Below are positions 25,116 to 45,367 of a stretch of DNA of 64,000 nt, piece after piece; within the stretch, counting starts at the first letter, position 1; each line of letters starts with the position of its first letter. The DNA is from Nocardia vinacea (GTDB taxonomy: Bacteria > Actinomycetota > Actinomycetes > Mycobacteriales > Mycobacteriaceae), in NCBI RefSeq assembly GCF_035920345.1, contig NZ_CP109149.1, forward strand, positions 9,982,001 through 10,046,000. Reading direction: 5' to 3'. The notes beneath the pieces were generated by a model that saw only the letters and a program-made list of their open reading frames with translations, had not been told where the DNA came from and ran no database searches. The translations under genes were made by a program, and so were the position numbers.

Positions 25116-25152
25116 CGCACCATCGTGGGTCCCGCGCCACGGTGGACTCCAC

Positions 25153-25719: not shown

Positions 25720-25723
25720 GGAA

Positions 25724-27881: not shown

Positions 27882-29234
27882 TCAGACCTGGATCGAGAGC
27901 TGATCGTATCGTTCTCGGAAGTCGGTATGGTGCGGTTTGGTTGCGGCGTTGCGAACCGGCTCCAACACACGCAAGGTTCGGCTCGAGGACACACCGCTGG
28001 CGAGGTTGGTGATGACGTCGGTGGCTTCGGTGATTGCGTCGGCGATGTTGCCCACTTGGGCCAGGGAGCAGGCGAACCAGGCGCGATAGTGGGCGGCGTT
28101 GCGTTGCCCGGCGCGCTCGGCGGCCACTTGCTCGAACAACTCCGTGGACATCGAAGCGTCGCCGAGGTATGCGTTGCCACAAGCCTCATGGTAGCGAACC
28201 TCGTTGTGGCACATAAATTTCAACCAGTCGGGGCATTGGTCGAGAGGTTCGTGATCGTAGGCGAGGTCCATCTCCCGCCACGCGCTTGCGATCGAGCGGT
28301 TGAACGCCGAGCGGTCGCCGAGGCAGGAATGAGCCAGCGCCTGCCTCGCGGCGATCAAGGCATGGATTCGGCCCGCGGCCGCGGGCCGGGCGAGGTCAGC
28401 GGCTCGCAGGGCGGATCGCAACGCGGAGTGCGGGTTGGCTTTTCCGCGTCGGGCCTGCGTGATGGTTTGCAACGCCCTGTTGAGGCAGGTGTGGGCAGCC
28501 AGTTCGTCATCGCCGACCTCGGCGGCCAACGCCAATGCGTCGCGGTAGCAGGCGGTGGCGGCATCCTGGTCGTCGGAGTCGTAGAACAGCCAGCCCGCCA
28601 TGACCGCCATATTGCCCGCCGCCGAAACGAAGGCCGGTAGTGCGGCGCCATCGATGTCGTGGGTCTGCAACATCATCTCGGCGTGCTCGAGGTCGGTTCG
28701 GGCCGCGGTCGCCAGCGTGCCTCCGCCGACCCGCTGTTCGGTGTTGACATAGCTGTCTACCCGCGCCGCAAGACGTTTGGCGGCGTTTATGCCGATGCGG
28801 GTGGGGAAGCGTTGTGGGCGGTGTGTGATGACGGTGAGACCGGCTGCGGTCCCACCGACGAGCAGTTGTCGCCGTTCCATGTCGTCGTCCTCGTCTAGTT
28901 TCGGTTCCCGGGCGACGTGGTGTGTATCGGCGATGATATGCCCAGCGATCGTCGACACGACAGCGGACTCGCCCGGTGGGAAGAACCCCAGAGCGGCGTC
29001 TGTAGCCGCTCCCAGCACAGCCCGCAACGCGTTTCGGTAGTCGGCGTTGGGCCAGCGCATCGTGCCCCGTTCCAACCTGCCGACATAGTTGCCGGACATG
29101 TCCATCGAGACGCCGCGGGCATGTGCCCACGCGTTGGCGGCCTCTGCGACCTCGTCGCGAGACATTGCGTAGCCGGTCACAGGCGAGACGATCGCCTGCC
29201 GGGCGGCTCGCAGCTGAACGTTGTTCTCCGACAT
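27882..29234 (-). CDS. XRE-type regulator with TPR-like C-terminal domain
   Basis: This 450-residue protein starts at ATG 29234. Residues about 8-75 form an HTH-like unit (MSRDEVAEAANAWAHARGVS and NYVGRLERGTMRWP), then MERRQLLVGG at about 123. The C-terminal 300 residues are Ala-rich helical pairs of TPR type (GWLFYDSDDQDAATACYRDA, HYRAWFACSLAQVGNIADAI). Such regulators are common in Streptomyces and Nocardia and often control secondary metabolism or development. It diverges from the megasynthase, with the direct repeats at 29303-29335 between them. Confidence 0.8.
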   Translation of the reverse strand: MSENNVQLRAARQAIVSPVTGYAMSRDEVAEAANAWAHARGVSMDMSGNYVGRLERGTMRWPNADYRNALRAVLGAATDAALGFFPPGESAVVSTIAGHIIADTHHVAREPKLDEDDDMERRQLLVGGTAAGLTVITHRPQRFPTRIGINAAKRLAARVDSYVNTEQRVGGGTLATAARTDLEHAEMMLQTHDIDGAALPAFVSAAGNMAVMAGWLFYDSDDQDAATACYRDALALAAEVGDDELAAHTCLNRALQTITQARRGKANPHSALRSALRAADLARPAAAGRIHALIAARQALAHSCLGDRSAFNRSIASAWREMDLAYDHEPLDQCPDWLKFMCHNEVRYHEACGNAYLGDASMSTELFEQVAAERAGQRNAAHYRAWFACSLAQVGNIADAITEATDVITNLASGVSSSRTLRVLEPVRNAATKPHHTDFRERYDQLSIQV

Positions 29235-29493
29235 CGCCTTGATCGTCGCATGATTCATTGTGTGCGCGTGTCGATTTCGGGTGCGACCAGGTGAGCAGGC
29301 CCGCACTCGAACGGCACTCGATCCGCACTCGAACTGGAATTGGCCTGGCCTGGGGATAGCGGGATTGTTGGCACCGTGGACGCCCGCTCGGTGCTGGGTC
29401 GTGGTGTGTGCCATCCCCGGATCCTGCCTGGGTCCGAGCCTCGGGCGGGTGTCCGCGTCGACAGTGATGGCCGGATATCAGGTGGTGGATGAG
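29235..29493. other. divergent promoter region of regulator and megasynthase
   Basis: These 259 bp separate the XRE-TPR gene from the megasynthase. Apart from the direct repeats, no clear -10/-35 pair was found. An in-frame upstream ATG at 29467 could extend the megasynthase by 9 residues. Confidence 0.55.
29303..29335. promoter_or_regulatory. three 11-bp direct repeats, SARP-box-like operator
   Basis: GCACTCGAACG, GCACTCGATCC and GCACTCGAACT lie head to tail. Each contains a heptamer TCGAWCN separated by the constant spacer GCAC. Heptamers at 11-bp pitch are the signature of SARP activator sites (for example TCGAGCN in antibiotic promoters). No SARP gene is in the window. It is 159 bp upstream of the megasynthase start and 69 bp upstream of the XRE-TPR start. 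Confidence 0.55.
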
Positions 29494-32400
29494 ATGAGTC
29501 ATGACACGGAACGATTCTGCGAGGATCGATCTCGGCATGATGCCCCGCTCTCGACACGATTGAATTCTGAGGGCACATCGAATGAGCGGGTGGCTGTTCA
29601 TCATCTGATCGAGCACACCGTCCGCGCCTACCCCAACGCGCCCGCTGTCGAATTCGGCGACCGCATCATGAGTTACTCGCAGCTCAACGCGTATGCGAAT
29701 CGCATTGCGCGGCAACTGGTCGCGGTCGGGGTGAAGATGGGTGACGCCGTTGGGCTGTGTGTGGACAGGTCCATCGATCAGATCGCCGCGGTGGTGGGCA
29801 TTGTGAAGGCAGGTTGTGCGGTCGTCCCGCTGGATCCGGCGTACCCGCGAGATCGGTTGGCGTTCATGGTTTCCGATTCCGGTGTCGAGGTCGTGATCAC
29901 CGCCGGCGCGCTCCCGGTCGAGGACCTGGACCCGCAGCTGCAGGAGATGACCACTGTCTGGCTCGATGAGCAGGCCGCCGCGATCGCCTCGCGGGCCGAT
30001 CACGATCTGCCGGGCACGCTACCGGCCGAGGCCACCTGTTACATGATCTACACCTCCGGCTCGACCGGACAGCCGAAGGGCGTCGTTGTCGAGCATGCGG
30101 CGGTGGCAAATCTTGTTGCCTGGCACCGAAATGCATGGCTGTCGGAGGTCGGTACCCGGACGTTGCTGTTTTCGCCGATCAGTTTCGACGTGGCCTTCCA
30201 TGAGATCTTCGCCGGATTGTGCACCGGCGCGACGCTTGTGCAGGTCGATGAAGACACCCGCCGTAATCCGATGGCGCTGCTGGAGTTCGCTCGAGTTCGG
30301 CGAATTCAGAAGTGGTACATGCCGTTTGTCACCTTGCAGCAGATCGCGCAGGCCGCCCACGGTGCCGAGGCGCCGGGCGAGCTCGCCGAACTCATCGTCG
30401 GCGGCGAGGTGCTGCGGGTGACCCCCGCGATCCGGGAGTTCGCCCGCCGTAGCGGGTGTGTCATTCACAACCACTACGGGTCGACCGAATGCATCGATGT
30501 GGCGACGTACACGCTGTCCGGTGACCCGGACCTGTGGCCGGGCGTGGTTCCCATCGGCCACCCCAACGTGGCGAATATGAACCTGTACCTGCTCGACCGG
30601 TCGCTACGACCGGTGTCGCAGGGAGAGGTCGGGGAGATCTATGCCGAGGGCGAGTTGCTCGCGCGGTGCTATCACCGGCGTCCGGGGCTGACGGCGGCGC
30701 GGTTTGTGCCGAACCCGTTCATGATCGGGGGGCGGCGGCTGTATCGGATGGGTGATCTGGGGCGCTACCTGCCCGACGGGACGATCGAATGCCTCGGCCG
30801 TGCGGACAACCAGGTCAAGATCCGCGGGTACCGCGTCGAACCCAGCGAAGTCGAGGCCGCCCTGGCCGAACACCCGGCCGTAGCCGAATGCGTCGTCACC
30901 GCCAACACTGCCGGTCACGACACCCGCCGGCTGCTCGCCTACGTCGTGGCCGCTAACGGATCCGACATCGCGGCCCTGCCGGAAGTGTTGCGCGCCAATA
31001 CAGCCCGGACACTGCCCGACTATATGGTCCCTGCGGCGGTGATCGTTGTCGATGCCTTGCCGCTGACCCCCAGCGGCAAAGTTGACGTGCGTGCCTTGGC
31101 CGCCCTCGCAACGTGTGTGGCACCCGAAAGCGCTGCGGAGGAGTCGATTACGTCGGTGCGGGATCTGGTCACCCGGATCTGGTGCGAGCTGCTGGAGGTG
31201 ACGCAGATCGACGTGCACAAAAGCTATTTCGACCTGGGTGCCGACTCGCTCATGATGGTGCACGCGCACCAGCGCATCGCTGCCGAGCTGGGACGGGATC
31301 TACCCGCCGAGACACTGTTCCGGTATCCGACGGCGCAGGCCCTGGCCAGCTTCCTGTGCGGTCGCGCCGATGGCGAGCCCACCGACCGCGCTCCGGTCAC
31401 GCAGTACCGGGCGCCAGGCCGCGACGAGGGGGCGGTGGCGATCATCGGCATGGCCTGCCGAGTTCCTGGTGCCGACACACTTGATCAGTTCTGGTCGAAC
31501 CTGCGCAACGGGGTCGAGTCGATCACACGGTTGCCGGACTCGCAGGTGTTCCGGCTGCCGACCGATCAGACTCGCGATCCGCACTTCGTGCCGGTGGCCG
31601 CGTCGATCGAGGGCATCGAGTACTTCGATGCGGAATTCTTCGGCTACAGCCCCGCCGAGGCCGCAGTGATCGATCCGCAGCAGCGGCTGTTCCTGGAATG
31701 CGCGTGGGAGGCGCTCGAGAACGCCGGTGCCGACACCCGACGCCTCCGGGCCGGTGTGTATGCGGGGTCGAGCATGAGCACCTATCTGATCAACAATGTG
31801 CTCCCGGCGAAGTTGCGGTCCGGAATCTATTTGAGCCACAGGCATTTCGACGATGCCACTGAGTTACGCATCGAGGTGGGCAACTCGCGCGATCACCTGC
31901 CGATGCGGACCTCGTTCAAGTGCGACCTGCGCGGCCCGAGCGTCAATGTGCAGTCCACCTGCTCGACCTCGCTGGTCGCGGTGCACATGGCGCGCCAGGC
32001 GCTGCTGTCGGGTGAGTGCGAGATCGCCGTGGCCGGAGGCGTTTCGATCATCACCCCGCAGGACACCGGCTACTTGTGGCGCGAGGGGATGATGGTGTCT
32101 CACGATGGGCACCTGCGGGCCTTCGACGCCGCCGCGGACGGCACGGTCTTCGGCAACGGGCTCGGTGTCGTAGTCCTCAAACGCTTGTCCGCCGCCCTGG
32201 CCGAGGGCGACCACATCTACGCAGTGATCACCGGCTCTGCGGTCAACAACGACGGGTCAAACAAAATCGACTACTCGGGCCCCAACGTCGCCGCCCAAGC
32301 CGAGGTCATCGCCCGAGCCCACCACGACGCTGGGGTGAACGCCGAGGACATCTCCTACGTCGAAACACACGGCACCGGCACAATATTGGGTGATCCGATC

Positions 32401-35400
32401 GAGATCGCGGGCCTGACCGAAGCATTCGGGCACAGCACCGATCGCGACGGGGCGTGGTGTGCGATCGGGTCGGTGAAAACCAACATCGGTCACCTCGACG
32501 AGGCGGCCGGAGTGATCGGACTGATCAAAACGGCGCTGAGCCTGAACCACCGCCAGATTCCGCCCAGCCTGGGATTCACCACCGCGAACCCACGGGCCGC
32601 GCTGGCGGCGAGCCCGTTCGTCGTCAACACCGAACTGCGCGACTGGTCAAGCGTCGACGGGCGGGTGCGCCGCGCCGGGGTGAGTTCCTTCGGCATGGGC
32701 GGCACGAATTGCCACGTTGTCCTGGAAGAGCCACCCGGCCAGCCGGTCTCACCGGCACCGGATATCGAGCGGCCCGCGCACTTGTTGACGATCTCAGCCC
32801 GCACTCCGGATGCGTTGCGCGCCAACATAGAGCGCTACCACGACCATCTCGACCAGCAACCGGCCGACCGGTTCGCTGACATCTGCTTCTCCGCCGCAAC
32901 CGGGCGCCGCCATTTCGACCATCGGATCGCAGTGCTGGCCACCGACGCTGCCGACGCACGCTCGCAGCTGACGCAGCTGCTATCCGAACCGGAACTCGGC
33001 GGGACCGCCTCCACAGTGGGGCCGCAGCAGCCGCCGGTGGCGTTCCTGTGCACCGGCCACGGATCGCAATACCCGCAGATGGGGCGGGTGTTATATGAGA
33101 CGCAGCTGGTGTATCGGGAGGCGTTCGATCGCTGCGACGCGATCCTGGCTCCGCTGATCGGGTGTTCGCTATCGGCGCTGCTGTACGGGCCGGACCCAGC
33201 GGACTGCATCGATGACAACCCGATCGCGCACCCGGCGTTGTTCAGCGTCGGCTACGCGATCGCCGCGCTGTGGGAATCCTGGGGCGTGCGGCCTGATCTC
33301 GTGGTCGGCTACAGCCTCGGGGAGTACCTGGCAGCCTGTCTTGCCGGGGTTTTCAGCCTCGAGGATGGGCTGCGATTGGTCGCGTCCCGGGCGCGGTTGG
33401 TCGACGAACTCACCCCGCCCGGCGCAATGGTGTATGTCCCGGCGGACGCGGACACCGTCGCCGCGGCGTTGATCGGATTCAACGAGAAAGTCTCGATCGC
33501 CGTGGTGAACGCCCCCGACGGCACGGTGATCTCCGGTGACCGCACCGTTCTCGACACTGTCGTCGCCGCCTTTCAGCGCGGTGGGATCGAACCGATTGTG
33601 TTGCCGGTGTCGCGGGCCTTCCATTCACCGGCGATGGTCGCGGTCGCCGAGCCGTATCGAGCGGTGGCCGAAACGGTGGTGTATTCGCCGCCGCGGTGCA
33701 ACATCATCGCCAACCTGACCGGGGAACTCGCCGGCGCCCATGAGCTGCAGAGCGCCGATTACTGGGTCCGGCACATGATCGAACCAGTGCAGTTCACCCG
33801 GGTGATGGCCGGGGCAGACCAGCTCGGGATCGGGGCGTTCGTCGAGATCGGCCCCAAGGCGACGTTGAGCAGTCTCGGGCGTCGCTGCCTGCCCGACAGC
33901 CCGGCTCTGTGGCTGCCCAGCCTGGCTCCGCGCGACCCGCATGCGATCCTCGCCGCCTTCCGCGCTCTGTACCTGGCCGGAATCCCGGTGGACTGGAACG
34001 GATTCGACAACCCTTTCCCCCGCCGCCGTGTCCCGGTGCCGACCTACGCCTTCCAGCGACGACGCCACTGGATCGACCTCCAGCCAGCCCCACATCACCC
34101 CAGGGAACGCGAGGCGCCGCCGCGCGCACTCGCCCCAGCCAGCGAACCGGAAGATGCGATGATCCCGCCGATCCTCGACCTCGTCTGGGAGCCTGCACCG
34201 ATCCCGGCGACCGCTGCGGGTCCGGTCACCGGCTACGTGGTGATCGGCCCCCGCGGCGAACTCACGCAACGGCTCACCGCAGGACTGCGAGCCAGCGGAG
34301 CGTCCTGTGCGCTTGTGCCGGTTGACCTTTCGGCCGACACGGACTCGTCGCTGTCCACCCAACTCGGGCGCCTGGCTCAACCGGTGATGTCACTGCGTGT
34401 GCTGCTGGTCGCTGACCCAGATGGGGGAGAGGACCCTGCGGCGGCCTTGCTGCCGGTGGTGACCGCAGCCAGGGCGGTGCTGGAGTTCGCCACCGGATCG
34501 AGCGCGGTGTCGAGCCTGTGGTTCGTGACCCGTGAACGCGATATCCGCAGTGCGGGTTTGGCGGCGCTGGCTCGCACGATCACCGCCGAGCACCCCGACC
34601 TCGCCTGCACCGCGATCACAGTGCCCACCCAGATCAGCGGCAGCGATCTCGAGGTGATCACCACCCGCCTGCGCCACGGCACCGACGCGGGTGAACAACT
34701 CGCGCTGCGAGCGGGCACCGTCCACCGTGCCCGCCTGATCCCGCGCCACGACGTTGGAACGGAGGCGGCGGTGCCGGTGCGTCATGACGGGACCTATGTG
34801 ATCACCGGCGGCACAGGGGGATTGGGGTTGCACGTGGCGGCGGCGCTTGCCCAGCACCGGCCGCAGCGGTTGATCCTGGTCAGCCGCTACGGCAAGCCCG
34901 CCGACACCCGAGCCTGGCAGGCCCTGTCGGCGAGCGGGGTCACGGTGGAGGTGGTGTGCGCGGAGGTGACCGACGAGGCGCGGATCCGCGAAATCTTCGC
35001 CGACTGCGGGCCGAACCTGCGTGGTGTCATCCACTGCGCTGGCGTGGTCGATGACGGAATCTTTGTCCGGCAGACCGCGGCGCGTATCGCGGGGGTGCTC
35101 GGGCCGAAGGTGCGTGGTGCGTGGCTGCTGCACACGCTCACCGCCGATCGAGACCTGGACTTCTTTGTCCTGTTCTCCTCTCTGGCCTCGGTGATCGGCT
35201 ATCGCGGGCAAGCCAGCTACGCCGCCGCCAACGGATTCCTGGATGGTCTGGCCGCCTATCGCCGCCAGCGTGGGTTGCCCGCGGTGAGTGTGAGCTGGGG
35301 CAGCTGGGCCGGAGCAGGCATGTCGGCCGCTCTCACCGAGGCCCAACGCGCAGCCCTGCGCGCTGACGGCGAAACCCGCCTCATTCCAGGCGCTGCGGTG

Positions 35401-38400
35401 TCCGCCCTGACCAGGTTGCTGACCAGCGCGACGCCGCACGCGGTCGTCGCCGACATGGACTGGGAACGCTTCGCAGTCTCCCGCAACTACCCCACTCCGA
35501 CGATCGAGGCCCTGATGAACCCCGCATCGACCGAACCCTCCCCCAGCGTCGCGACCGGATCGTTGCGGACCCGGCTGCGCAACACGGCCCCGCAGCACGC
35601 CCGAGAGCTGCTGCGCCGGGAGGTCTCTACAGCCGTGGCTGCCCTGCTGGGTTGCGATCCCGATCACCTCGACCCTCGCCGCGGGCTCGAGGAGATGGGC
35701 CTGGACTCGTTGGGCGCTCTGGACCTGCGCGCGAAGCTGGAAACCGATCTCGGTGTGCGACTGTCTGCCACCGTCGCGTTCGACCACCCCTGCGTCGATG
35801 CCCTGGTCGAGCACCTCGCCGACCGGCATTTCACCGATGACATCACGGCCACACCGGCACCGATCCCGGTAACTGCGGAGCCCGTAGCTGCGGCCGGGGC
35901 GGGTGCGCGACCCGATCGAGACGCCGAGGCGGCGCAGGGGGAGACCGGGGTCGCGATCATCGGCATGGCGTGCAAGTTCCCGGGCGCCGATTCTCCCGAC
36001 GAGTTGTGGAAGCTGCTGCTCGAAGGCCAGGATATGGTGGCCGAAATCCCGCCTGGCCGTTGGGATGTCGATGGCTTCTACGATCCGTCGCCGCAGGCAC
36101 CGGGCAAGATGCATGTTCGTGATGCTGCGACGATCACCGGCCTGGACTTCTTCGACACAGGTTTCTTCGGGATCTCCCCGCGCGAGGCCGCGAGCATGGA
36201 TCCGCGGCATCGGCTGCTGCTGGCATCGGCGTGGCACGCGGTGGAGAACGCCGGAATCGACCCGACATCTTTGCATGGCAGCGACACCGCGGTCTATCTC
36301 GGCTGCGACGAGTTCCTCAACGACTACCTGCGCCAAGCCGACGCCGGCCTGGGCAGCGAACCTTATTTGGCGACCGGGACGACGCTGAGCATGACCGCAG
36401 GGCGGTTGTCCTACAAGTTCGGCTGCCACGGCCCGAGCCTGGTGATCGCCACCGGATGCTCATCAGCGCTGGTCGCGGTGCACTCCGCGGTGCAGGCGAT
36501 CCGCAGCGGTGACTGCGAACTCGCGATCGTCGGCAGCGGCAAACTGATGGTGGACCCGCTCGAAACCGTCCAACTGTGCAAGCTGGGCGCATTGGCGTCC
36601 GACGGGCGTTCGAAAGTGTTCTCCGCGGCCGCCGACGGATTCGGGCGCGGCGAGGGTGTCGCGACGATCGTGCTGAAGCGCCTCGACCACGCTCTCACCG
36701 ACGGCGACCCCATCCACGCGGTGATCCGCGGGTCCGCGGTCAACCACGACGGGCCCAGCTCCGGGTTGACCGTCCCCAACGGTGCCGCGCAAACAGCGGT
36801 CATCACACGTGCGCTGCGCAACGCCGGAATCACCGCCGCCGAGGTCACCTACGTCGAAACCCACGGCACCGGAACACAACTGGGTGACCCGATCGAACTC
36901 AACGCCCTCGGTGCCGCATTCGACGGCGACCGGGCCCGCGCACTGTTCGTCGGGTCGGTCAAGGCCAACATCGGACACCTCGAAGAAGCCGCAGGCCTGG
37001 CCGGACTGATCAAGACAGTCCTCATGGTGCACCACGGCGTCATCCCCGCCCAGCTGCACTGCGAACACCTCAACACCAACGTGGACTGGGCGCAGCTGCG
37101 GTTGCAGGTGCCCGGCACAGCCACGGACTGGCCGACCGACGCCGCGCGGATCGCCGGAGTGAGTTCCTTCGGCCTCAGCGGCACCAACGCCCACGTCATC
37201 GTCGAATCTCACACCCCCGCAACACAACCGACGCCGCAAGGACTGTTCGTCTTCCCGTTCTCCGCCCGCGACGAGGACGACCTGCGCGCCAGCATCGGGC
37301 GCATCGCCGACGCTCTGTCCGCCGGGCACGACCCGGGCGCGATCGCCTACACGCTGCAGGTGGGCCGCCAGCACTACCGCCACCGGCTGGCTGTCGTCGC
37401 TGCCTCGATTAGCGAAGTCCGCGCCCGCCTGCAGGCTGTGCTCGGCAACGGCGCGACCGCGGCCAGCGTGCACCGCGGTAATGCCGGGACCCAACCGCGT
37501 CACCTCGACCCGCAAGCCGCCGAGCATCTGTACGCCGACCGGGATCTCGTCGGTGTGGCCGCACGGTGGTGCGAGGGATTCGACATCGACTGGCAGCGCC
37601 TCTACCCCGCAGGCCTGCCACGGCGGGTCGCGCTGCCGGGCTATCCGTTCAAACACGAGAGCATCTGGAGTGCAACGCCGCCTGCGCTTGGCGCATCGGC
37701 CCAGGCCGCGCCGAAACCTGTGGCACCGCAACTAGATACACCTGCAACGCCTACACCATCGGCTTCGACAGTGCGCGCCGAGATCCACGCTGGTGTCGCC
37801 GCGTTGCTCGGCTTTACGCCTGAGGCGCTGGACAGCGCGGCCAGCCTCGAAGGGTTGGGCGCGGACTCGCTGATGTTCACCCGCCTGGGCCACTTCCTGC
37901 GCGATCACTACCAGGTCGAAATCCCATTCCAGCAACTCATCGACGAGGCGGCCACCGTCGACGATGTTGTCGCTGTGGTGACCGCCCGCCAGCCCCACAC
38001 CACCGCACCGACCCCACCGAGCCCCGCACCAGCGGAACCGCTGGCGGCATCGACGCCGATGCTGCGATCCGGGCCCGCCAGCTTGGCGGGCGGGCCGCCA
38101 GTAGCGGGGCTGTTGACCGACCAGCAGACGGCCTTCATAGGCGAGCTCGTCGCGGCGTACGCCGCTCGCACTTCAGGGTCGAAATCCCGTGCCGCGCAGG
38201 ACCGGCCGGTGATGGCGAACTGTCGGATGACACCGTTCCAGATGTCGTTGAAGGAGCTGTGCTATCCGATCGTGGCCGAACGCTCCTACGGTTCCCGGTT
38301 CTGGGACGTCGACGGCAACGAGTACCTCGATATCGCGATGGGCTACGGAGTGCACTTCTTCGGCTACCAGCCCGACTTCGTGCTCGAGGCGCTGCGCGCG

Positions 38401-40707
38401 CAGCTCGACGAGGGCGTCCACATCGGCCCCCAGGTCGCGGGCGCCGGCCACGTCGCGCGCCAGCTGTGCGAGATCACCGGCAACCAGCGCGCGGTGTTCT
38501 GCAACTCCGGCACCGAAGCGGTCATGGCCGCATTGCGTTTCGCGCGCGCGGCCACCGGCCGGACCCGGTTCGTGATGTTCGAGGGCTCCTATCACGGCTG
38601 GTCTGATGGCACCTTGGCCCTGCCCGCCGGTACCCAGAAATCCATGGCGATGTCGCGCGGTGTCGGTGCGGGCGTGATGAGCGATGTCATCGTGCTCGAC
38701 TACGGGGCACCGGAGAGCCTCGAAGTGATCAGTGGCCTCGGTGCGGAGCTGGCCGCGGTGTTGGTCGAGCCGGTGCAAAGCCGTCGACCCGATCTGCAGC
38801 CGGCCGAGTTCCTGCACACGTTGCGTGAACTGACCCATGCCTCAGGTATGGCCCTGATCTTCGACGAGGTGGTCACCGGGTTCCGGGTCGGACCGCGCGG
38901 TGCACAAGGTTGGTCGGGTGTGGACGCCGATATGGCCGTCTACGGCAAGATCCTCGGCGGGGGGCTGCCGGTCGGTGCCGTCGCCGGGCGTGCTGAATTC
39001 CTCGACACCATCGACGGCGGTGCCTGGTCCTATGGTGACGACTCGAGCCCCTCGGTGCCGACGACCTTTTACGGCGGAACGTTCAACCGCAACCCGCTGA
39101 CGATGGCGGCGGCCTCGGCAGTGTTGACTCGCGTGGCCGCCGAGGGCCCGCAGCTGGCGCAGCGCGCCAGCGAGCACGTGGCATGGCTGGCCGAGGACTT
39201 CAACACCTTCTGCCGCAGTGAAGGATTCCCGCTGCGGATCGTGTACTTCACCTCGGTGTTCCGGTTCATCGGCGAGGGTGACTATCGGCTGCTGCGTTCC
39301 TCCCTCGAACTCGAACTGTTCTTCCACCTGCTCGCGCTGCACGGGGTCTACGTTCTCGAAACCCGCGTCTGCTACCTGTCAGCGGCCCACACCGACCAGG
39401 ACATGCGCCGCATCGCAGAGACCGCGAAAACCTGCCTGCACGAGTTGCGCCGCGGCGGCTTCTTCCCAGCACCAACTCTCACGACTGCTTCGGTGCCGAT
39501 CCGGCAGCGGTCGCGGCTGCTCGACGATGCTCACCTGGACCTCACTGTGGCGACAGGGCTCGCTCCGGACGCCGACAGGGGCGAGGACGTGCTGGTGACC
39601 GGTGCCACCGGATTCCTCGGCCGCTACCTGACACGGGATCTGCTCGAGGCCACCTCGGCACGTATCCACTGTTTGGTGCGCGCACGCGACACCGATCAGG
39701 CCAACCAGAGGGTGATCGCCGCGCTGACCGAAGCCGGCGAGATCGACGACGCGTGGCGGGAGCGGATCGTCGCCATCCCCGCCGAGTTGTCCAGTCCGAG
39801 ACTGGGAGTGGCGACCAATCAGTGGCGACACCTCGCTGAGCAGATCACCGCGATCTACCACTGCGGGGCACACGTGAACGCGCTGCTGCCCTACGACAAA
39901 CTCGAGCCCGCCAACGTGTGCGGGACCCGCGAGCTTCTGCGCCTGGCCGCCGAGCATCACCCGACACCGTTTCACTATGTCTCCTCCGACGCGGTATTCG
40001 ATGCCCACGGTTATCACCGGCACGCCGTCCTCTACGAAGACCAACCGCTGGCCTACAGCGACAGCATGTACGGCGGCGGCTACGCCGAAACCAAGTGGGT
40101 GGCAGACACACTCGTCGACCACGCCCGCAGTCTCGGCCTGCCCACCAACATCTATCGCCCCGGCGTGCTCTTGTGCGCCACTACCGGCGGCTGCGGGCAG
40201 CCCGGCGACTTCATGAACCGTTTCCTGCGCGGCGTCATCGAGCTCGGCGTATGCCCGGATCTGGACGCAACGATCGACCTCACCCCGGTCGACTACGCCT
40301 CACACCTGATCGTGGACCTCTCGCGCACAGGCCGGACACACTCCACGTTCCATCTGACCCATCCCGACCCGATCAGCTATGCCGAGTTCATCGAGGCAGT
40401 GCGCGCGAACGGGTATCGGATCCAGACCGTCGCGCTACACGAGTGGGACGCCATTGTGCGGGCATTGCGGCACGAGGACGGCAACCCGCTGTACCCACTG
40501 GTGCCGCTGCTCACCGAGTCGCCGGATCCCTACTTCCGCAAGGCACGCCTCGATGTCGGCAACACCCGCGCCGCCGCACCCACGGTGATCGACTCCTGCC
40601 CGTCGCTGCCCGAGTTGATCGCGCTGCATCTGCAACGCCTTCGCGCCCAAGGATTTCTGCCCCCGGCGCCCGAGTTGGCAGGCACTTCGGCGGTGGCGGC
40701 CCGATGA
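29494..40707 (+). CDS. hybrid NRPS-PKS megasynthase A-PCP-KS-AT-KR-ACP-KS-ACP-AMT-R
   Basis: This 3737-residue assembly line has these domains. Adenylation 34-530 (YTSGSTGQPKG; PSGKVD) and PCP (FDLGADSL, about 580). KS1 648-1083, Cys 823 in QSTCSTSL, histidines in ETHGTGT and KTNIGH. AT 1180-1520, Ser 1274 in GYSLGEY and an AFHS malonyl-type motif. KR 1766-2009 (GGTGGLG; YAAAN; GVVDDG suggests B-type). ACP Ser 2072. KS2 2151-2571, Cys 2322. A linker without AT, then ACP Ser 2792. Class-III PLP aminotransferase 2875-3322, Lys 3152 in YGKILGGG. Thioester reductase 3365-3703 (GATGFLG; YAETK 3530-3534). There is no DH, ER or thioesterase. The likely route is: activated amino acid, malonyl extension and ketoreduction, second extension, transamination of the beta-ketone, reductive release as aldehyde or alcohol. 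ATG 29494 was chosen; 29467 is possible. Confidence 0.92.
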   Translation: MSHDTERFCEDRSRHDAPLSTRLNSEGTSNERVAVHHLIEHTVRAYPNAPAVEFGDRIMSYSQLNAYANRIARQLVAVGVKMGDAVGLCVDRSIDQIAAVVGIVKAGCAVVPLDPAYPRDRLAFMVSDSGVEVVITAGALPVEDLDPQLQEMTTVWLDEQAAAIASRADHDLPGTLPAEATCYMIYTSGSTGQPKGVVVEHAAVANLVAWHRNAWLSEVGTRTLLFSPISFDVAFHEIFAGLCTGATLVQVDEDTRRNPMALLEFARVRRIQKWYMPFVTLQQIAQAAHGAEAPGELAELIVGGEVLRVTPAIREFARRSGCVIHNHYGSTECIDVATYTLSGDPDLWPGVVPIGHPNVANMNLYLLDRSLRPVSQGEVGEIYAEGELLARCYHRRPGLTAARFVPNPFMIGGRRLYRMGDLGRYLPDGTIECLGRADNQVKIRGYRVEPSEVEAALAEHPAVAECVVTANTAGHDTRRLLAYVVAANGSDIAALPEVLRANTARTLPDYMVPAAVIVVDALPLTPSGKVDVRALAALATCVAPESAAEESITSVRDLVTRIWCELLEVTQIDVHKSYFDLGADSLMMVHAHQRIAAELGRDLPAETLFRYPTAQALASFLCGRADGEPTDRAPVTQYRAPGRDEGAVAIIGMACRVPGADTLDQFWSNLRNGVESITRLPDSQVFRLPTDQTRDPHFVPVAASIEGIEYFDAEFFGYSPAEAAVIDPQQRLFLECAWEALENAGADTRRLRAGVYAGSSMSTYLINNVLPAKLRSGIYLSHRHFDDATELRIEVGNSRDHLPMRTSFKCDLRGPSVNVQSTCSTSLVAVHMARQALLSGECEIAVAGGVSIITPQDTGYLWREGMMVSHDGHLRAFDAAADGTVFGNGLGVVVLKRLSAALAEGDHIYAVITGSAVNNDGSNKIDYSGPNVAAQAEVIARAHHDAGVNAEDISYVETHGTGTILGDPIEIAGLTEAFGHSTDRDGAWCAIGSVKTNIGHLDEAAGVIGLIKTALSLNHRQIPPSLGFTTANPRAALAASPFVVNTELRDWSSVDGRVRRAGVSSFGMGGTNCHVVLEEPPGQPVSPAPDIERPAHLLTISARTPDALRANIERYHDHLDQQPADRFADICFSAATGRRHFDHRIAVLATDAADARSQLTQLLSEPELGGTASTVGPQQPPVAFLCTGHGSQYPQMGRVLYETQLVYREAFDRCDAILAPLIGCSLSALLYGPDPADCIDDNPIAHPALFSVGYAIAALWESWGVRPDLVVGYSLGEYLAACLAGVFSLEDGLRLVASRARLVDELTPPGAMVYVPADADTVAAALIGFNEKVSIAVVNAPDGTVISGDRTVLDTVVAAFQRGGIEPIVLPVSRAFHSPAMVAVAEPYRAVAETVVYSPPRCNIIANLTGELAGAHELQSADYWVRHMIEPVQFTRVMAGADQLGIGAFVEIGPKATLSSLGRRCLPDSPALWLPSLAPRDPHAILAAFRALYLAGIPVDWNGFDNPFPRRRVPVPTYAFQRRRHWIDLQPAPHHPREREAPPRALAPASEPEDAMIPPILDLVWEPAPIPATAAGPVTGYVVIGPRGELTQRLTAGLRASGASCALVPVDLSADTDSSLSTQLGRLAQPVMSLRVLLVADPDGGEDPAAALLPVVTAARAVLEFATGSSAVSSLWFVTRERDIRSAGLAALARTITAEHPDLACTAITVPTQISGSDLEVITTRLRHGTDAGEQLALRAGTVHRARLIPRHDVGTEAAVPVRHDGTYVITGGTGGLGLHVAAALAQHRPQRLILVSRYGKPADTRAWQALSASGVTVEVVCAEVTDEARIREIFADCGPNLRGVIHCAGVVDDGIFVRQTAARIAGVLGPKVRGAWLLHTLTADRDLDFFVLFSSLASVIGYRGQASYAAANGFLDGLAAYRRQRGLPAVSVSWGSWAGAGMSAALTEAQRAALRADGETRLIPGAAVSALTRLLTSATPHAVVADMDWERFAVSRNYPTPTIEALMNPASTEPSPSVATGSLRTRLRNTAPQHARELLRREVSTAVAALLGCDPDHLDPRRGLEEMGLDSLGALDLRAKLETDLGVRLSATVAFDHPCVDALVEHLADRHFTDDITATPAPIPVTAEPVAAAGAGARPDRDAEAAQGETGVAIIGMACKFPGADSPDELWKLLLEGQDMVAEIPPGRWDVDGFYDPSPQAPGKMHVRDAATITGLDFFDTGFFGISPREAASMDPRHRLLLASAWHAVENAGIDPTSLHGSDTAVYLGCDEFLNDYLRQADAGLGSEPYLATGTTLSMTAGRLSYKFGCHGPSLVIATGCSSALVAVHSAVQAIRSGDCELAIVGSGKLMVDPLETVQLCKLGALASDGRSKVFSAAADGFGRGEGVATIVLKRLDHALTDGDPIHAVIRGSAVNHDGPSSGLTVPNGAAQTAVITRALRNAGITAAEVTYVETHGTGTQLGDPIELNALGAAFDGDRARALFVGSVKANIGHLEEAAGLAGLIKTVLMVHHGVIPAQLHCEHLNTNVDWAQLRLQVPGTATDWPTDAARIAGVSSFGLSGTNAHVIVESHTPATQPTPQGLFVFPFSARDEDDLRASIGRIADALSAGHDPGAIAYTLQVGRQHYRHRLAVVAASISEVRARLQAVLGNGATAASVHRGNAGTQPRHLDPQAAEHLYADRDLVGVAARWCEGFDIDWQRLYPAGLPRRVALPGYPFKHESIWSATPPALGASAQAAPKPVAPQLDTPATPTPSASTVRAEIHAGVAALLGFTPEALDSAASLEGLGADSLMFTRLGHFLRDHYQVEIPFQQLIDEAATVDDVVAVVTARQPHTTAPTPPSPAPAEPLAASTPMLRSGPASLAGGPPVAGLLTDQQTAFIGELVAAYAARTSGSKSRAAQDRPVMANCRMTPFQMSLKELCYPIVAERSYGSRFWDVDGNEYLDIAMGYGVHFFGYQPDFVLEALRAQLDEGVHIGPQVAGAGHVARQLCEITGNQRAVFCNSGTEAVMAALRFARAATGRTRFVMFEGSYHGWSDGTLALPAGTQKSMAMSRGVGAGVMSDVIVLDYGAPESLEVISGLGAELAAVLVEPVQSRRPDLQPAEFLHTLRELTHASGMALIFDEVVTGFRVGPRGAQGWSGVDADMAVYGKILGGGLPVGAVAGRAEFLDTIDGGAWSYGDDSSPSVPTTFYGGTFNRNPLTMAAASAVLTRVAAEGPQLAQRASEHVAWLAEDFNTFCRSEGFPLRIVYFTSVFRFIGEGDYRLLRSSLELELFFHLLALHGVYVLETRVCYLSAAHTDQDMRRIAETAKTCLHELRRGGFFPAPTLTTASVPIRQRSRLLDDAHLDLTVATGLAPDADRGEDVLVTGATGFLGRYLTRDLLEATSARIHCLVRARDTDQANQRVIAALTEAGEIDDAWRERIVAIPAELSSPRLGVATNQWRHLAEQITAIYHCGAHVNALLPYDKLEPANVCGTRELLRLAAEHHPTPFHYVSSDAVFDAHGYHRHAVLYEDQPLAYSDSMYGGGYAETKWVADTLVDHARSLGLPTNIYRPGVLLCATTGGCGQPGDFMNRFLRGVIELGVCPDLDATIDLTPVDYASHLIVDLSRTGRTHSTFHLTHPDPISYAEFIEAVRANGYRIQTVALHEWDAIVRALRHEDGNPLYPLVPLLTESPDPYFRKARLDVGNTRAAAPTVIDSCPSLPELIALHLQRLRAQGFLPPAPELAGTSAVAAR

Positions 40708-41855
40708 CCGGATTCGGCCCGGGCCTCTCCGCCGTGGATGTCGCTGACATCGACCACGATTGGCTGCATACCCGGCTGGGCTGGAGGGTGAACCATGAGC
40801 AGCCGGTGTCGGCGGAGTCCCTGCTCCGCGCGGGCGGCTCGACCTGCGGGGTGCATCGCGTCCGCTGCGGTGACCGCTCTTTCATCTACAAGACCGCACC
40901 GCAGGGCAACAGTGTGTGGGCCCAGTGGATCCGCGACGCCGACGCAGTCGCGCGGGAAGTGCGCAGCTACCGACTCCTGGGTGAGCACGGGCCGGTTGCT
41001 GAGCTGATCGCTCCGCGATGCTATTGGTCGACACTCGGCGTCGACGGGCGTGGGGCGTTGGCGCTGCAAGACCTGGGCGCATCCGGCGCACCCGATCCCA
41101 CCGCATTGGCTCGGGGGCTGACCTATCCGCAAGCACGGGCCGCGATGCGGCCGCTGGCGGTTCTGCACGCGCTCGCCGCCAACACGGCTGCGGACTTTTC
41201 GGTGCCGCCGCATCCGTGGCTGCTTTCCGCGTCCTCCGCCGATCTGATCACCGCCATTCGCGCGGGTTTCGACGATCTGCCCCGCGCATGGGAGATCTGT
41301 CAGCCCGATGTCGGATCGGTTGCGGTGCAACGGATCATCTCCGGCATCGACGTGGAACAGGAGTTGATCGGTGCGCATCAAGGCTCGACGTTGATCTCGG
41401 TATGCCATGGCGATCTGTGGGCAGGAAATCTCGTCTTCACCACTGCCGGCCCAGCCCGGCCGATGACCGCGCGACTGATCGACTGGCAGTTCACGATGTG
41501 GGGCAACCCGCTGTCCGACCTGGCCGTGCTGCTGATGTCGTCGCTGCACCCGGCACACCGGCAGGCTTGGCAGGAACCCCTGCTGCGCCACTACCACCAA
41601 ACTCTGATCGCGCAATCGGGGCTGGCCTACAGCTTCGCCGAATGCCTCGACGACTTCGACCGAGCCCAGCGGTTCGCAGCGCTCGTCGTGCTGGCAACCC
41701 TGGACGGCTATACCGCCGAGATGACCGTCACCGAGCGCGCACGGTTCGCGCCTAGAGTGCTGACCGCCCTGAACCTGGTCACCACCGCATACGCCACCGG
41801 AACCCCATCTGACACAGACAGTTTCGAAGCCAACAGTCGAACAGGAGCGAGGTAG
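40704..41855 (+). CDS. APH/ecdysteroid-kinase-like small-molecule kinase
   Basis: This 383-residue kinase-fold protein has a catalytic loop VCHGDLWAGNLVF near residue 235 and RLIDWQFTMWGNP near 260, the pattern of the APH/DUF1679 (EcKL) group. The N-lobe has CGDRSFIYKTAPQG, with a candidate ATP-binding Lys. ATG 40704 overlaps the megasynthase stop (ATGA), so it belongs to the biosynthetic operon. It may phosphorylate the product (self-protection or tailoring). That role is inferred from position only. Confidence 0.82.
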   Translation: MTGFGPGLSAVDVADIDHDWLHTRLGWRVNHEQPVSAESLLRAGGSTCGVHRVRCGDRSFIYKTAPQGNSVWAQWIRDADAVAREVRSYRLLGEHGPVAELIAPRCYWSTLGVDGRGALALQDLGASGAPDPTALARGLTYPQARAAMRPLAVLHALAANTAADFSVPPHPWLLSASSADLITAIRAGFDDLPRAWEICQPDVGSVAVQRIISGIDVEQELIGAHQGSTLISVCHGDLWAGNLVFTTAGPARPMTARLIDWQFTMWGNPLSDLAVLLMSSLHPAHRQAWQEPLLRHYHQTLIAQSGLAYSFAECLDDFDRAQRFAALVVLATLDGYTAEMTVTERARFAPRVLTALNLVTTAYATGTPSDTDSFEANSRTGAR

Positions 41856-41857
41856 AC

Positions 41858-43156
41858 GTGGCGAAGATCGTTGAAGTCGCGGTGATCGGCGCCGGCATGT
41901 TCGGGGCAGCGGCCAGCAAATACCTCAGCCGCGAAGGCGCCGACGTCCTCGTCATCGGGCCGGGCGAACCCGTGGGCACGGGGCAAGTCAGCCCAGCCGC
42001 GTTCAGCGCCCATTTCGACGAAGCCCGGATCTGCCGACGGCTGGGCTGGGACGAGGTATGGGCGGCGCTGGATGCCCGATCCCTCGAGCGGTTCCGCGAC
42101 ATCGAAACCGAATCCGGCATCGCCTTCTTCCGCGACTGCGGATCACTGGTATTGCTGGCCAAGTCGATTCACCACCGGACCACGGTGATCGTCGACCAAT
42201 GCCACGACGAAGGGATCCCGGTCGAGCGACTGACCGAACCTGCACTGCGGGCAGAGTTTCCCGCACTCGGACTGCCGCGCCTGGCCGACGGGGTCGAGGG
42301 TTTGCTCGAGCGGACGCACGCCGGCTACCTGAACCCGAGAAAACTCGTCGCCGCCCAGCTCGTTCTGACCGACGCTGCCGGGGGCCGACGCCTGCGCGGC
42401 GCTGTCCACGCGATCAGCAAGGACCGGGGACTGTGGAAGCTGCAGGTAGTCCACGACGACGGGGGCATCGATGAGATCACTGCCGAGAAGGTGCTTATCG
42501 CCACCGGCGCGCTCACCAACGAAACCGGTGTCCTTCCCGAGGGGCGCCGCCTCACGCTTCGCGCGTTCACCGAACCCAACCTGCTGTTCGAACTCAGCGA
42601 CAGCGATCGTGACCGCTTGCAGACGCTACCGCCGGTAGTGACCGTCGACCCTCGTGATGTCGGTGACGCCAACATGTCGCTGTATATGCTGCCGCCGATC
42701 CGATACCCGGACGGCCGCTGCTACATGCGTATCGGGCCCGGCATGCAGCCGTTCGTCCAGCCGCTGCGCTCGGCCGCCGAGATGATCGACTGGTACACCG
42801 CCCAGCAGATCACCGCGCGACAAGCCCGGTTCCTCACCGATGCGATGGAAACCATGGTGCCCGGCCTGCGCCCGGCATCGGCGCGGCAGGCCTGCTGCAT
42901 CATCGAGAAGACCGCCACCCGTTACCCCTATATCGGCCACCTCGACGATGACGATGACAGCCTCACCGTCGCGGTAGGAGGCAACGGGCACGGTGCCCGC
43001 GGATCCGACGAGATCGGCCGCCTCGCCGCGAACACCGTCCTGGGAAAGCCCTGGGACTGCCCCATCCCCGAGAACACATTCACTCCCGTCATAACCCAGA
43101 CGAGTGATTGTTCGACCCAACTCGACGGACTCAAACCACCGTTCGGCCTGTGCTGA
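41858..43156 (+). CDS. DAO-family FAD-dependent oxidoreductase
   Basis: This 432-residue flavoenzyme of the D-amino-acid/glycine-oxidase type carries the N-terminal dinucleotide motif VAVIGAGMFGAAASKYLS, then VLVIGPGEPVGTG. VLIATGALTN sits mid-protein and VAVGGNGHGARGSDEIGRLA forms the C-terminal FAD contact. GTG 41858 lies 2 bases after the kinase stop. It probably oxidises an amine in the megasynthase product or a precursor to an imine or keto acid. The exact substrate is unknown. No signal peptide is present. Confidence 0.85.
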   Translation: MAKIVEVAVIGAGMFGAAASKYLSREGADVLVIGPGEPVGTGQVSPAAFSAHFDEARICRRLGWDEVWAALDARSLERFRDIETESGIAFFRDCGSLVLLAKSIHHRTTVIVDQCHDEGIPVERLTEPALRAEFPALGLPRLADGVEGLLERTHAGYLNPRKLVAAQLVLTDAAGGRRLRGAVHAISKDRGLWKLQVVHDDGGIDEITAEKVLIATGALTNETGVLPEGRRLTLRAFTEPNLLFELSDSDRDRLQTLPPVVTVDPRDVGDANMSLYMLPPIRYPDGRCYMRIGPGMQPFVQPLRSAAEMIDWYTAQQITARQARFLTDAMETMVPGLRPASARQACCIIEKTATRYPYIGHLDDDDDSLTVAVGGNGHGARGSDEIGRLAANTVLGKPWDCPIPENTFTPVITQTSDCSTQLDGLKPPFGLC

Positions 43157-43185
43157 CCGTCCAGAAGTGATTGGGTGTCGCGAAG

Positions 43186-44643
43186 TTAGGGGATGACCGC
43201 CTCGATCGGCAGATTCCATCGGGTCTCGGTCCGGCCGTTAGCGACGCCGTGCGACGGCACGGGAATCGGGTAGTCGCCGGTCAAGCACGCTGTGCACAGG
43301 CCGGTTGTGTCTTCGGGGCTGATGGCGGTGAGCATCGCGTCGATGTCCAAGTACGCCAAGGAGTCCGCCCCGAGGAAGGTTCTGATCTCCTCGACACTCA
43401 TTTGCGCTGCAACCAGTTTCGACTGGTCGGTGGTGTCCATGCCATACCAGCACGGCCATTTGTACGGCGGTGAGAGCACCCGCAGGTGGATCTCGGCCAC
43501 ACCGGAATTGCGCAGCATGCGCATCGTTTCCAGCAGTGTGGTAGCTCGGATGATCGAGTCCTCGACCACGACGAGGCGCTTGCCTTCGATGTTCTCTCGA
43601 ATCGGGTTCAGCTTGATCTTGACCGCGTTGCGGCGAAGCTGCTGAGTGGGGGCGATGAATGTTCGGCCGATGTATCTGTTCTTGACGAAACCGTCGACGT
43701 ACGGGATGCCGGACTCGTGCGCGTATCCCTGGGCGCCGGGAACGCTGGATTCCGGGATCGGGACCACGGCGTCGGCGTCGACGGGAGCCTGACGTGCCAG
43801 GGCTTCGCCCATGCGCTGCCGGACTCGATGAACATTCTGGCCCCGCAGATTTCCATCCGGCCGAGCGAAATACACATACTCGAATGAACAGAATTTCGGC
43901 ACGATCTCTTCGGCGGGGAAGGGCCACAACGACTTCACACCGGCGCCGTCGATGACAACCATCTCGCCAGGTTGAATCTCACGAACGACAGCGGCGTCGA
44001 TAACATCGAGCGCCGGTGTCTCCGACGCCAGGGCCCAGCCCCCATCATTGAGGCGGCCGAGGAACAGCGGGCGAAAGCCATGCGGGTCACGCACACCGAT
44101 GATCGCGTCCTGGCTCAGGAGCACGAAGGAATAGGCTCCGCTGAGCCGGGGGAGCGTGCGGACGAATGCCTCGACGAGTTCGTCCTGATCACCGCTGCCG
44201 CCATGCAATTCGCGTGCCAGCAGCTCGGCCGCGAGATCGCTGTCGCTGCCGATTCCATCGGCGGGGACACCGAGTTCCGTAGCGAGTGGCTCGGTATTGA
44301 CGAGGTTGCCGTTATGGGCCAGCGCGAATTGGTGTTTGCCGACTTGCCGGTACACCGGCTGGGAGTTTTGCCAGTCGCCGGAACCTGTTGTGCTGTAACG
44401 GGTGTGGCCGATCGCCAAGTCCCCACGCAGGGTCTGCAAACGATAGTCGTTGAAAATGGTTGAGACCAGGCCGGTGTCCTTGTCGACCCAAATCTTGTCG
44501 CCCTCGCTGACCGCTATGCCTGCGGCTTCCTGTCCCCGATGCTGCAGGGCGAACAGGCCGAGATAGACCATGTGAGAGACGGGGCTGCCGGGGGCATAGA
44601 GTCCGAAAACGCCGCAAGATTCCTTGGGTGCACTGTCGTCCAC
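43186..44643 (-). CDS. purF: amidophosphoribosyltransferase
   Basis: This 485-residue class-II glutamine amidotransferase fused to a PRTase makes phosphoribosylamine from PRPP and glutamine. The propeptide VDDSAPKES precedes the catalytic Cys of CGVFGLY. HRGQEAAGIAV, TRYSTTGS and HNGNLVN are the glutaminase motifs. VVEDSIIRATTLLETMRML is the PRPP loop, where Ala replaces the usual Gly. Cys residues at CSFEYVYFA, PCWYGMD and LCTACLTGDYPI could hold an Fe-S cluster, as in Bacillus-type PurF. The start is GTG 44643. No other purine gene is adjacent, so it may be a second copy. It converges on the biosynthetic operon with only 29 bp between stops. Confidence 0.9.
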   Translation of the reverse strand: MDDSAPKESCGVFGLYAPGSPVSHMVYLGLFALQHRGQEAAGIAVSEGDKIWVDKDTGLVSTIFNDYRLQTLRGDLAIGHTRYSTTGSGDWQNSQPVYRQVGKHQFALAHNGNLVNTEPLATELGVPADGIGSDSDLAAELLARELHGGSGDQDELVEAFVRTLPRLSGAYSFVLLSQDAIIGVRDPHGFRPLFLGRLNDGGWALASETPALDVIDAAVVREIQPGEMVVIDGAGVKSLWPFPAEEIVPKFCSFEYVYFARPDGNLRGQNVHRVRQRMGEALARQAPVDADAVVPIPESSVPGAQGYAHESGIPYVDGFVKNRYIGRTFIAPTQQLRRNAVKIKLNPIRENIEGKRLVVVEDSIIRATTLLETMRMLRNSGVAEIHLRVLSPPYKWPCWYGMDTTDQSKLVAAQMSVEEIRTFLGADSLAYLDIDAMLTAISPEDTTGLCTACLTGDYPIPVPSHGVANGRTETRWNLPIEAVIP

Positions 44644-44713
44644 CGCCAAAGCGTACCCGACCGGCGGCCATCCTTCGTCGGCCGCAGTGCGTAGGTTTGC
44701 GCCGCAAGCAGTG

Positions 44714-45286
44714 TCATTTCGTGCGGGCATGCAAGTGCATGTCGTGCCATCCATCCAGGTGCAGCCCGGCGCTTGCTTTCGTGCCCTCCAGCCCAAAACC
44801 CGTCTTGTCGGCGACACGGCAGGAGGCGTGATTGTGTACCGAGTGAGTCAGCTCGAGCCGGTGAAATCCGACTCCGTCGAAGGCCCAGGCGGTCAGCGCC
44901 TCAACGGCGCGAGGGGCAACGGCCAAGCCGCGGGCCGCGGGCATGGTCCAGTACGCCATCTCCGCCTGGCCGGCGGGCAAGTCCATGTGCTTGAGCGAAG
45001 TCCGCCCGACAACGCGACCGTCGCTGTCTGCGACTGCCCAGTGAGCCCGGATAGCGTTGCGCCATGCACGATTCCACGCCTGGATCCAGCTGCTCGCCTC
45101 ATCTGTCGATGCCGCGGCGCGAACATGCCATCGCTGGATCATCGGGTCCTGGAATGCCTCGAACACCGCTGGTGCGTCATCATGCGACCACGGCCGCAGA
45201 ACCAAGCCGCCGGGAGCCGGAATCATAGGTTGAGCGGTCTGCGTGAAACGCTCGGCGCTGACGACATCGGGTGTCAGTTCAGGCAT
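44714..45286 (-). CDS. GNAT-family acetyltransferase (RimJ/RimL-like)
   Basis: This 190-residue protein has LVLRPWSHDDAPAVFEAFQD at the start, then VVGRTSLKHMDLPAGQAEMA and AYWTMPAARGLAVAPRAVEA. GFHRLELTHSVHNHASCRVA, followed by DKTGFGLEGT, resembles the RimJ-like group. The usual RxxGxG loop is degenerate (AARGLA). The start is ATG 45286, divergent from the operator at 45368. It sits upstream of purF on the same strand. Confidence 0.82.
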   Translation of the reverse strand: MPELTPDVVSAERFTQTAQPMIPAPGGLVLRPWSHDDAPAVFEAFQDPMIQRWHVRAAASTDEASSWIQAWNRAWRNAIRAHWAVADSDGRVVGRTSLKHMDLPAGQAEMAYWTMPAARGLAVAPRAVEALTAWAFDGVGFHRLELTHSVHNHASCRVADKTGFGLEGTKASAGLHLDGWHDMHLHARTK

Positions 45287-45367
45287 ACAGGGATTCTGTG
45301 GTGCCGACGCGATTTACCGTGGTAAGCCCCGGTCGACACGGAGAGTCGAAACTGCGGTGAAAATGGA

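Follow-up and report, generated by a model that had tools for sequence, protein, structure and literature searches.

A rare single-protein NRPS-PKS assembly line ending in aminotransferase and reductase domains, and the extra PurF copy beside it in Nocardia

What might a single bacterial protein make when it starts from an amino acid and ends in an aminotransferase and a reductase, and why would a purine-synthesis gene lie beside it? We addressed this question in a window of 64,000 nucleotides from Nocardia vinacea (the whole stretch of DNA analysed here; features in Table 1). A preliminary description had read the order A-PCP-KS-AT-KR-ACP-KS-ACP-AMT-R in one chain, and this order was confirmed by the Pfam and NCBIfam domains together with the core motifs. 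With domain E-values down to 2.6e-153, chance is ruled out as the source of these predicted domains. The plus-strand frame is open over 29260..40707 (3815 codons), and the ATG at 29494 named in the preliminary description falls inside it. The gene's own database entry (P0002) has 3705 aa, for which the start would be 29590. The synthase is a single protein of about 3.7-3.8 thousand amino acids that ends at 40707. An NsdA-family TPR regulator gene (27882-29414, minus strand) is divergent from the synthase and overlaps its longest possible start; it has no match at the other synthase loci at E <= 1e-12.

Table 1. Features of the synthase locus (positions in the window)
Feature	Position	Residues	Strand	Basis or remark
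NRPS-PKS megasynthase A-PCP-KS-AT-KR-ACP-KS-ACP-AMT-R	29494..40707		+	frame open from 29260; alternative start 29590
Adenylation (A) domain	29611..31080	118-607	+	Pfam/NCBIfam; motif A3 YTSGSTG
Peptidyl carrier protein (PCP)	31153..31353 (limits approximate)		+	GADSL
KS1	31435..32925	from ~726	+	Cys/His/His present
Acyltransferase (AT)	33043..33894	1262-1545	+	GYSLGE, RAFH; the protein's only AT
Ketoreductase (KR)	34789..35310	1844-2017	+	TGGTGGLG, VDD, YAAAN
ACP1	35620..35817	2121-2186	+	Pfam/NCBIfam, carrier motif
KS2 with RhiE-like linker, AT-less module	35947..37446	2230 to ~2650 (KS2)	+	Cys/His/His present
ACP2	37762..37986	~2835-2909	+	Pfam, carrier motif
Class III aminotransferase (AMT), iturin/mycosubtilin type	38215..39459 (limits approximate)	~3002-~3396	+	NSGTEA, GKILGGG
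Thioester reductase (R)	39589..40659	3444-3800	+	TIGR01746 284.6 bits, cut-off 213.35
EcKL/APH-like small-molecule kinase	40704..41855		+	Pfam PF02958
FAD amine oxidase, sarcosine/N-methyltryptophan oxidase kind	41858..43156		+	Pfam/NCBIfam
Second, diverged PurF (amidophosphoribosyltransferase)	43186..44817		-	TIGR01134 470.4 bits, cut-off 350
GNAT acetyltransferase adjoining PurF	44714..45286		-	conserved in some loci

The protein has all the domains of a modular NRPS-type I PKS hybrid with reductive release in one chain, with their core motifs. Three carrier GxDSL serines are present, the Cys/His/His sets are intact in both KS domains, and the R domain contains TGATGFLG and YAETK. Pfam found one AT stretch only, 3' of KS1, and its RAFH motif presumably follows the rule for malonyl-like specificity. 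An AT after KS2, sought by Pfam and by motif, was not found, and a RhiE-like linker occupies that place. The malonyl unit of module 2 must therefore come from the first AT or be supplied in trans. This module is of the iturin type: a mycosubtilin-subfamily AMT, with the PLP-lysine motif GKILGGG aligned, adjoins its ACP in a KS module that contains no integrated AT. The best PDB match of the AMT is the mycosubtilin AMT (6kfm, E 1.7e-128), followed among different molecules by glutamate-1-semialdehyde aminomutase (6e-54). By blastp it is about 46% identical to the AMTs of the 3981-3982-aa synthases at Bacillus loci L050 and L057.

Three known systems resemble parts of this protein. MycA and ItuA of mycosubtilin and iturin synthesis belong to the same AMT subfamily, and the KS-ACP-AMT cassette of MycA has no AT of its own either. 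They differ in using a fatty-acid starter, where an amino acid is predicted here, and in continuing after the cassette with a condensation domain, where the window synthase has a reductase; a full KS-AT-KR-ACP precedes the cassette here. Membership in the iturin-family lipopeptide synthases, defined by a fatty-acyl starter and peptide-forming C-A-PCP modules 3' of the AMT, was rejected on the amino-acid A start and the reductase end, which leaves a shared cassette only. SwnK-type (swainsonine) synthases have the order A-T-KS-AT-KR-ACP-R and share the aminoacyl starter, one reduced malonyl extension and reductive release to an aza-cycle; unlike them, the window synthase is bacterial, has an extra AT-less KS-ACP-AMT step and has other neighbours. 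Pathways of the zeamine and fabclavine type are PUFA-synthase-like multi-protein systems for long polyamines and in this are unlike the window synthase. Zeamine, fabclavine and deoxy-polyamine pathways resemble it in combining amination and a thioester reductase in one pathway, according to the accessible portions of two papers (PMC3547906, PMC9113149).

The pocket residues of the A domain, located by eye from motifs A4 and A5, are D V H Y I G H D V K, with the last K assumed from A10. When the pocket stretch alone was compared with the PDB, the best matches were tyrocidine synthetase 2 and gramicidin S synthetase 2, in domains that we take to be proline-activating. Five of nine positions agree with tyrocidine synthetase 2 and four differ (H, Y, G and D here; Q, S, A and V there). 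Because of these four differences we do not claim a proline starter. A 2,3-diaminopropionate starter was considered since the Streptomyces synthase locus (L110) has SbnA and SbnB, which direct 2,3-diaminopropionate synthesis, and an asparagine-synthase-like protein nearby (L110:12292-17487), possibly as an adjacent cluster. SbnB was positive in 6 of 150 Nocardia genomes, none of them synthase-bearing, and SbnA had only relatives of at most 39% identity in the synthase-bearing Nocardia genomes. With SbnB absent from all six Nocardia synthase genomes while most pocket motifs are alike across the family, the idea was dropped. The C6 skeleton predicted with a glycine starter would equal negamycin acid. 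Negamycin was rejected as the product, as its cluster encodes lysine hydroxylation and beta-lysine formation in the accessible part of a preprint (PMC12154649).

The preliminary description had further predicted an amino-acid-derived chain with a beta-hydroxyl, an amine set by transamination of the beta-ketone, and release as aldehyde or alcohol. The domain content supports the first prediction through the aminoacyl A-PCP start and one extension reduced by KR; the iturin-type AMT in the second extension supports the predicted amination, and the match to a terminal NAD(P)-type thioester reductase supports reductive release. This logic of starter, extension, AMT and R stands, while the AT-less state of module 2 and the conserved kinase, oxidase and PurF neighbours had been overlooked. 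The amino aldehyde may, as suggested there, cyclise to an imine, a step that makes chemical sense and is in keeping with the amine-oxidase neighbour. From the order of the domains alone it cannot be told whether the AMT instead acts after R; on the free aldehyde it would produce a terminal amine, while the starter amine would capture the beta-ketone as a five-ring imine. Aminotransferases that aminate aldehydes after thioester reductases reportedly act in the myxochelin, coelimycin and prodigiosin pathways. Against such late action, the AMT is nearest to that of mycosubtilin, which works on a carrier-bound beta-ketone, and it lies upstream of R and adjoins its ACP; we therefore consider late action unlikely and prefer amination on the carrier.

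The preliminary description also knew of no pathway with this domain order and called for a search for proteins sharing it. Residues 2950-3790 (AMT-R) were compared with 5.8 billion proteins; at least 2102 candidates were scored and at least 1162 had E <= 1e-3. The following figures are among the best 120 of these 1162 matches, the first entry being the window's own protein. At least 35 homologues (P0003-P0037) span 97-100% of the query at 48-70% identity, whereas the remaining matches cover 51-71% of it. The named sources are Nocardia, Microbispora, Lentzea, Micromonospora, Nonomuraea, Streptomyces and an Acidobacteria MAG. By motif position, A<KS<AT<KR<KS<AMT holds in 32 of 36 proteins (the window's and the 35 homologues), and the other four are N-terminally short. 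A strict count that included a regular expression for R gave 27 of 36, five more failing that expression alone; the R region is covered in the family search alignment of all 36. The architecture is thus that of a family and not a singleton. No description of the order was met in the literature searched, mostly outside subscription journals and apart from MIBiG, and to that extent the earlier view stands.

The motif FDV[AS]FHE occurs in all 32 A-domain-bearing proteins of the 36, and most other A pocket motifs are also alike among them. Pocket position 330, judged by eye, is mostly D, with E in P0023; P0032-P0035 and P0037, which form a distant group, have T. All 20 listed homologues of more than 3900 aa have a C domain. 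The second His of HHxxxDG, the catalytic one, is replaced by T, A, P or E in 20 of these 20 (a count that left out P0029, of 3678 aa, which also has a C-domain entry). A working C-domain start in the larger homologues was therefore rejected; we take the C domain as a relic, so that A-PCP loads the chain. Class-wide genome sampling gave one positive in 394, the window's own genome. The single plasmid-borne relative at E <= 1e-100 was a Planktothrix AMT with 52% coverage. A scan of named genomes returned mostly other AMT synthases, L009 and L010 being the close ones among the matches listed. The synthase belongs to a real assembly-line family, rare in the sampled genomes, in which known parts form a new combination.

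The comparison of neighbourhoods covered eight synthase loci, the window among them: one from Streptomyces and seven from six Nocardia genomes, one of which has two. Matches to the kinase, the oxidase and PurF lie beside the synthase at all eight. In the window the kinase and oxidase genes follow directly 3' of the synthase on the same strand, and PurF is convergent to both. A single ORF of 798-804 aa encodes both kinase and oxidase in L103, L105 and L107; the window and Streptomyces L110 have a separate gene for each. By sequence the kinase has no relative in the PDB. The nearest PDB relatives of the oxidase are monomeric sarcosine oxidases (E 1.5e-8), and its Cys 347 falls in the alignment on their Cys 315, presumably the covalent FAD site. 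The neighbours conserved with the synthase, namely the kinase, the flavin amine oxidase and the duplicated PurF, carry most of the biological meaning. GNAT genes adjoin PurF in the window, L100, L107 and G121, and a relative of the HAD phosphatase of L102 adjoins PurF in four Nocardia loci.

Other genes of the window were also recorded. Upstream, 24174-26902 (minus strand) encodes in a row an APH-type kinase, a weak GNAT match and an ARMT1-like damage-control phosphatase; the APH has a 51% relative at L102:9132-10106. An FMO-like flavin monooxygenase (7395-9521, plus strand) has a relative (57%) at L107:8976-10685, close to the GNAT and PurF of that locus. HsdM, HsdS and HsdR genes in a row form a type I restriction-modification operon (57711-63834, plus strand). 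No RNA family reached its gathering score, and the tRNA search found none.

Among the new results, the dedicated PurF copy is the strongest. Its true start probably lies near 44646, judged from the 486-aa homologue P0125. It belongs to the TIGR01134 equivalog and contains the N-terminal CGVFG glutaminase motif and the PRPP loop EDSIIRATT. In all seven synthase genomes a cluster PurF (73-100% identity to that of the window) is accompanied by one other PurF (49-52%), so the idea that it is the genome's only copy was rejected. We infer that the other copies are the housekeeping enzymes. The genome with two synthase loci (G115; L101/L102 and L103/L104) has two cluster PurFs, one at each locus; the long ORF of its second locus begins after the AT.

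When 8 cluster and 7 housekeeping PurFs were aligned, 59 columns had fixed differences, three of them gaps. The glutaminase motifs CGVFG and HNGNLVNT are kept in the cluster PurFs. The PRPP loop changes from [VI]VVDDSIVRGNT in the housekeeping proteins (n=7) to VV[VI]EDSI[IV]RATT in the cluster proteins (n=8), and a second loop from PESGTPAA to PESS[VI]PGAQ. The altered residues presumably bind the ribose and phosphate of PRPP. A search that scored 7999 candidates gave 27 homologues with E <= 1e-200; the E of the PRPP loop is present in all 27, with RATT in 18 and RGTT in 9, which leaves the E alone invariant. The loop reads DDSIVRGTT in Bacillus and Arabidopsis PurF, which makes its T ordinary and the E the diagnostic change. 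A FastTree phylogeny united all 34 cluster-type PurFs in one clade (support 0.79), with the 7 housekeeping sequences outside it. By these sequence comparisons the cluster protein is an extra, diverged PurF.

The synthase (E <= 1e-150) and the cluster PurF (E <= 1e-175) were sought in 150 Nocardia and 392 Streptomyces genomes. The synthase was present in 6 and 1 of these, respectively, and the cluster PurF in 7 and 1. Both occur in 7 of the 542 genomes, PurF only in one (G121), the synthase only in none, and neither in 534 (Fisher p 3e-15, with genomes that are not independent and include the window's own). Beyond these genomes, seven PurF/synthase pairs lie on equal-sized contigs, six of them also with the same strain name, which is an indirect form of linkage (P0127/P0003, P0130/P0016, P0132/P0014, P0134/P0021, P0141/P0006, P0144/P0011 and P0149/P0010); they include Streptomyces, Microbispora and Nonomuraea. 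Synthase and PurF distances correlate over 15 pairs (Mantel r 0.70, 0 of 20000 permutations), where two of the 15 synthases (P0003 and the Streptomyces G640 piece) were untrimmed to AMT-R and identities were taken from shared columns only. The two proteins could track each other in this way through shared strain ancestry. Taken as a whole, the anatomy of the synthase and its link to PurF are very probably correct.

G121, which has PurF and GNAT without the synthase block, bears on what this PurF is for. Its PurF is 98% identical to the window's, but it stands beside a different NRPS cluster and is convergent to an extra IMP dehydrogenase. At the DNA level, 43181-45366 of the window (PurF and GNAT) is 94% identical in G121 and 48019-48993 is 93% identical. 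The synthase, kinase and oxidase had no match within the 39 kb compared, and the synthase none genome-wide. The G121 block encodes the IMP dehydrogenase (TIGR01302 591 bits, cut-off 481.5), an asparagine-synthase-like protein, a TauD dioxygenase and an NRPS of 2340 aa with a thioesterase at its end; around PurF (L138/L139/L140) the NRPS, AsnB-like and TauD genes occur together with a SARP-FHA regulator. A PurH-type AICAR formyltransferase gene lies about 4 kb from PurF on its opposite flank. The IMP dehydrogenase beside PurF is extra: G121 encodes another one, to which it is 72% identical, and it is missing from the window's genome. A second PurF, at 52%, is also present in G121. One immunity-like PurF thus occurs with two biosynthetic engines, in one case beside an extra purine enzyme, which we read as support for protection of purine synthesis. 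The G121 NRPS cluster is a second candidate cluster for a purine-synthesis inhibitor. The arrangement can also be read as an accident of a shared insertion site. PurF would then be a passenger at a favoured site, or would only raise purine flux or escape feedback, with no link to the product; the near-perfect co-occurrence in 542 genomes, the outside pairs and the adjacency at all eight loci make this quite improbable.

Our preferred explanation is that the megasynthase, kinase, oxidase and PurF form a small cluster for an aza-cycle and that PurF is a self-resistance copy of the target; we give this whole explanation a probability of about 0.5. Its single element that the cluster PurF serves as a target-replacement self-resistance gene seems slightly better than an even bet, and a second PurF, linked to the cluster and additional to another copy, was found in 7 of 7 synthase genomes. 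The A-PCP would load an amino acid, and a malonyl extension followed by KR reduction would give a beta-alcohol. The AT-less module would extend the chain again, the AMT would aminate the new beta-ketone, and R would release an amino aldehyde able to close to a cyclic imine or amine. We infer that the kinase and oxidase may act on the synthase product and that cyclisation, oxidation and phosphorylation would follow the synthase: the oxidase may desaturate the ring and the kinase may phosphorylate the hydroxyl. The finished, perhaps phosphorylated, compound would inhibit purine synthesis at its first step, which the producer would sustain by means of the cluster PurF with its uniformly altered PRPP-binding loop. 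The extra copy suggests that the cluster product may attack purine synthesis. In a more specific and rather unlikely form of this proposal, a family of phosphorylated aza-cycles, derived from short amino-acid/polyketide amino aldehydes and mimicking PRPP or its transition state, would target amidophosphoribosyltransferase, which catalyses the committed step of the purine pathway, and the rebuilt loop (DD to ED in every cluster-type case, RG to RA often) would provide an immunity common to the unrelated NRPS cluster.

IMP dehydrogenase with mycophenolic acid is an example of self-resistance by target replacement, and such cases resemble the present one in that a biosynthetic cluster is linked to a second, diverged version of an essential enzyme. 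The concept is treated in a self-resistance database paper (PMC10419868), the accessible main text of which did not mention PurF. A PurF self-resistance gene was likewise not described in the literature searched, mostly outside subscription journals. Literature negatives of this kind, including that for the domain order, give weak support for novelty. Duplicated purine or pyrimidine enzymes occur in antibiotic clusters, as does phosphatase logic around a phosphorylated toxic product; in the accessible parts of PMC8724604, minimycin self-protection involves a uracil phosphoribosyltransferase, a phosphatase and a transporter, and formycin uses a second Pur-like enzyme set for biosynthesis.

The formycin case favours another reading, in which the PurF paralogue is itself biosynthetic and aminates a modified phosphosugar, or supplies phosphoribosylamine to be joined to the amino aldehyde, the altered loop fitting a new donor. 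The core motifs of both halves are kept while the PRPP and pyrophosphate loops are changed, and a kinase match lies at 8 of 8 synthase loci, in keeping with such a role. However, no other purine-pathway enzyme is conserved in the block at the loci compared, and the 98% identical copy of G121, with its unrelated NRPS and extra IMP dehydrogenase, fits shared protection better. We regard a biosynthetic role as doubtful; if it were true, an amidophosphoribosyltransferase would be put to unusual use here.

If PurF is instead the self-resistance gene that we favour, it would point to the start of de novo purine synthesis, its first step, as the predicted target of a metabolite family that is apparently undescribed and has synthases in Nocardia, Streptomyces, Micromonospora, Microbispora, Nonomuraea and Lentzea. 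Being compact, with one protein and a short conserved block, the synthase is well suited to expression, and PurF with EDSIxR[AG]TT would then be a marker for finding more such clusters.
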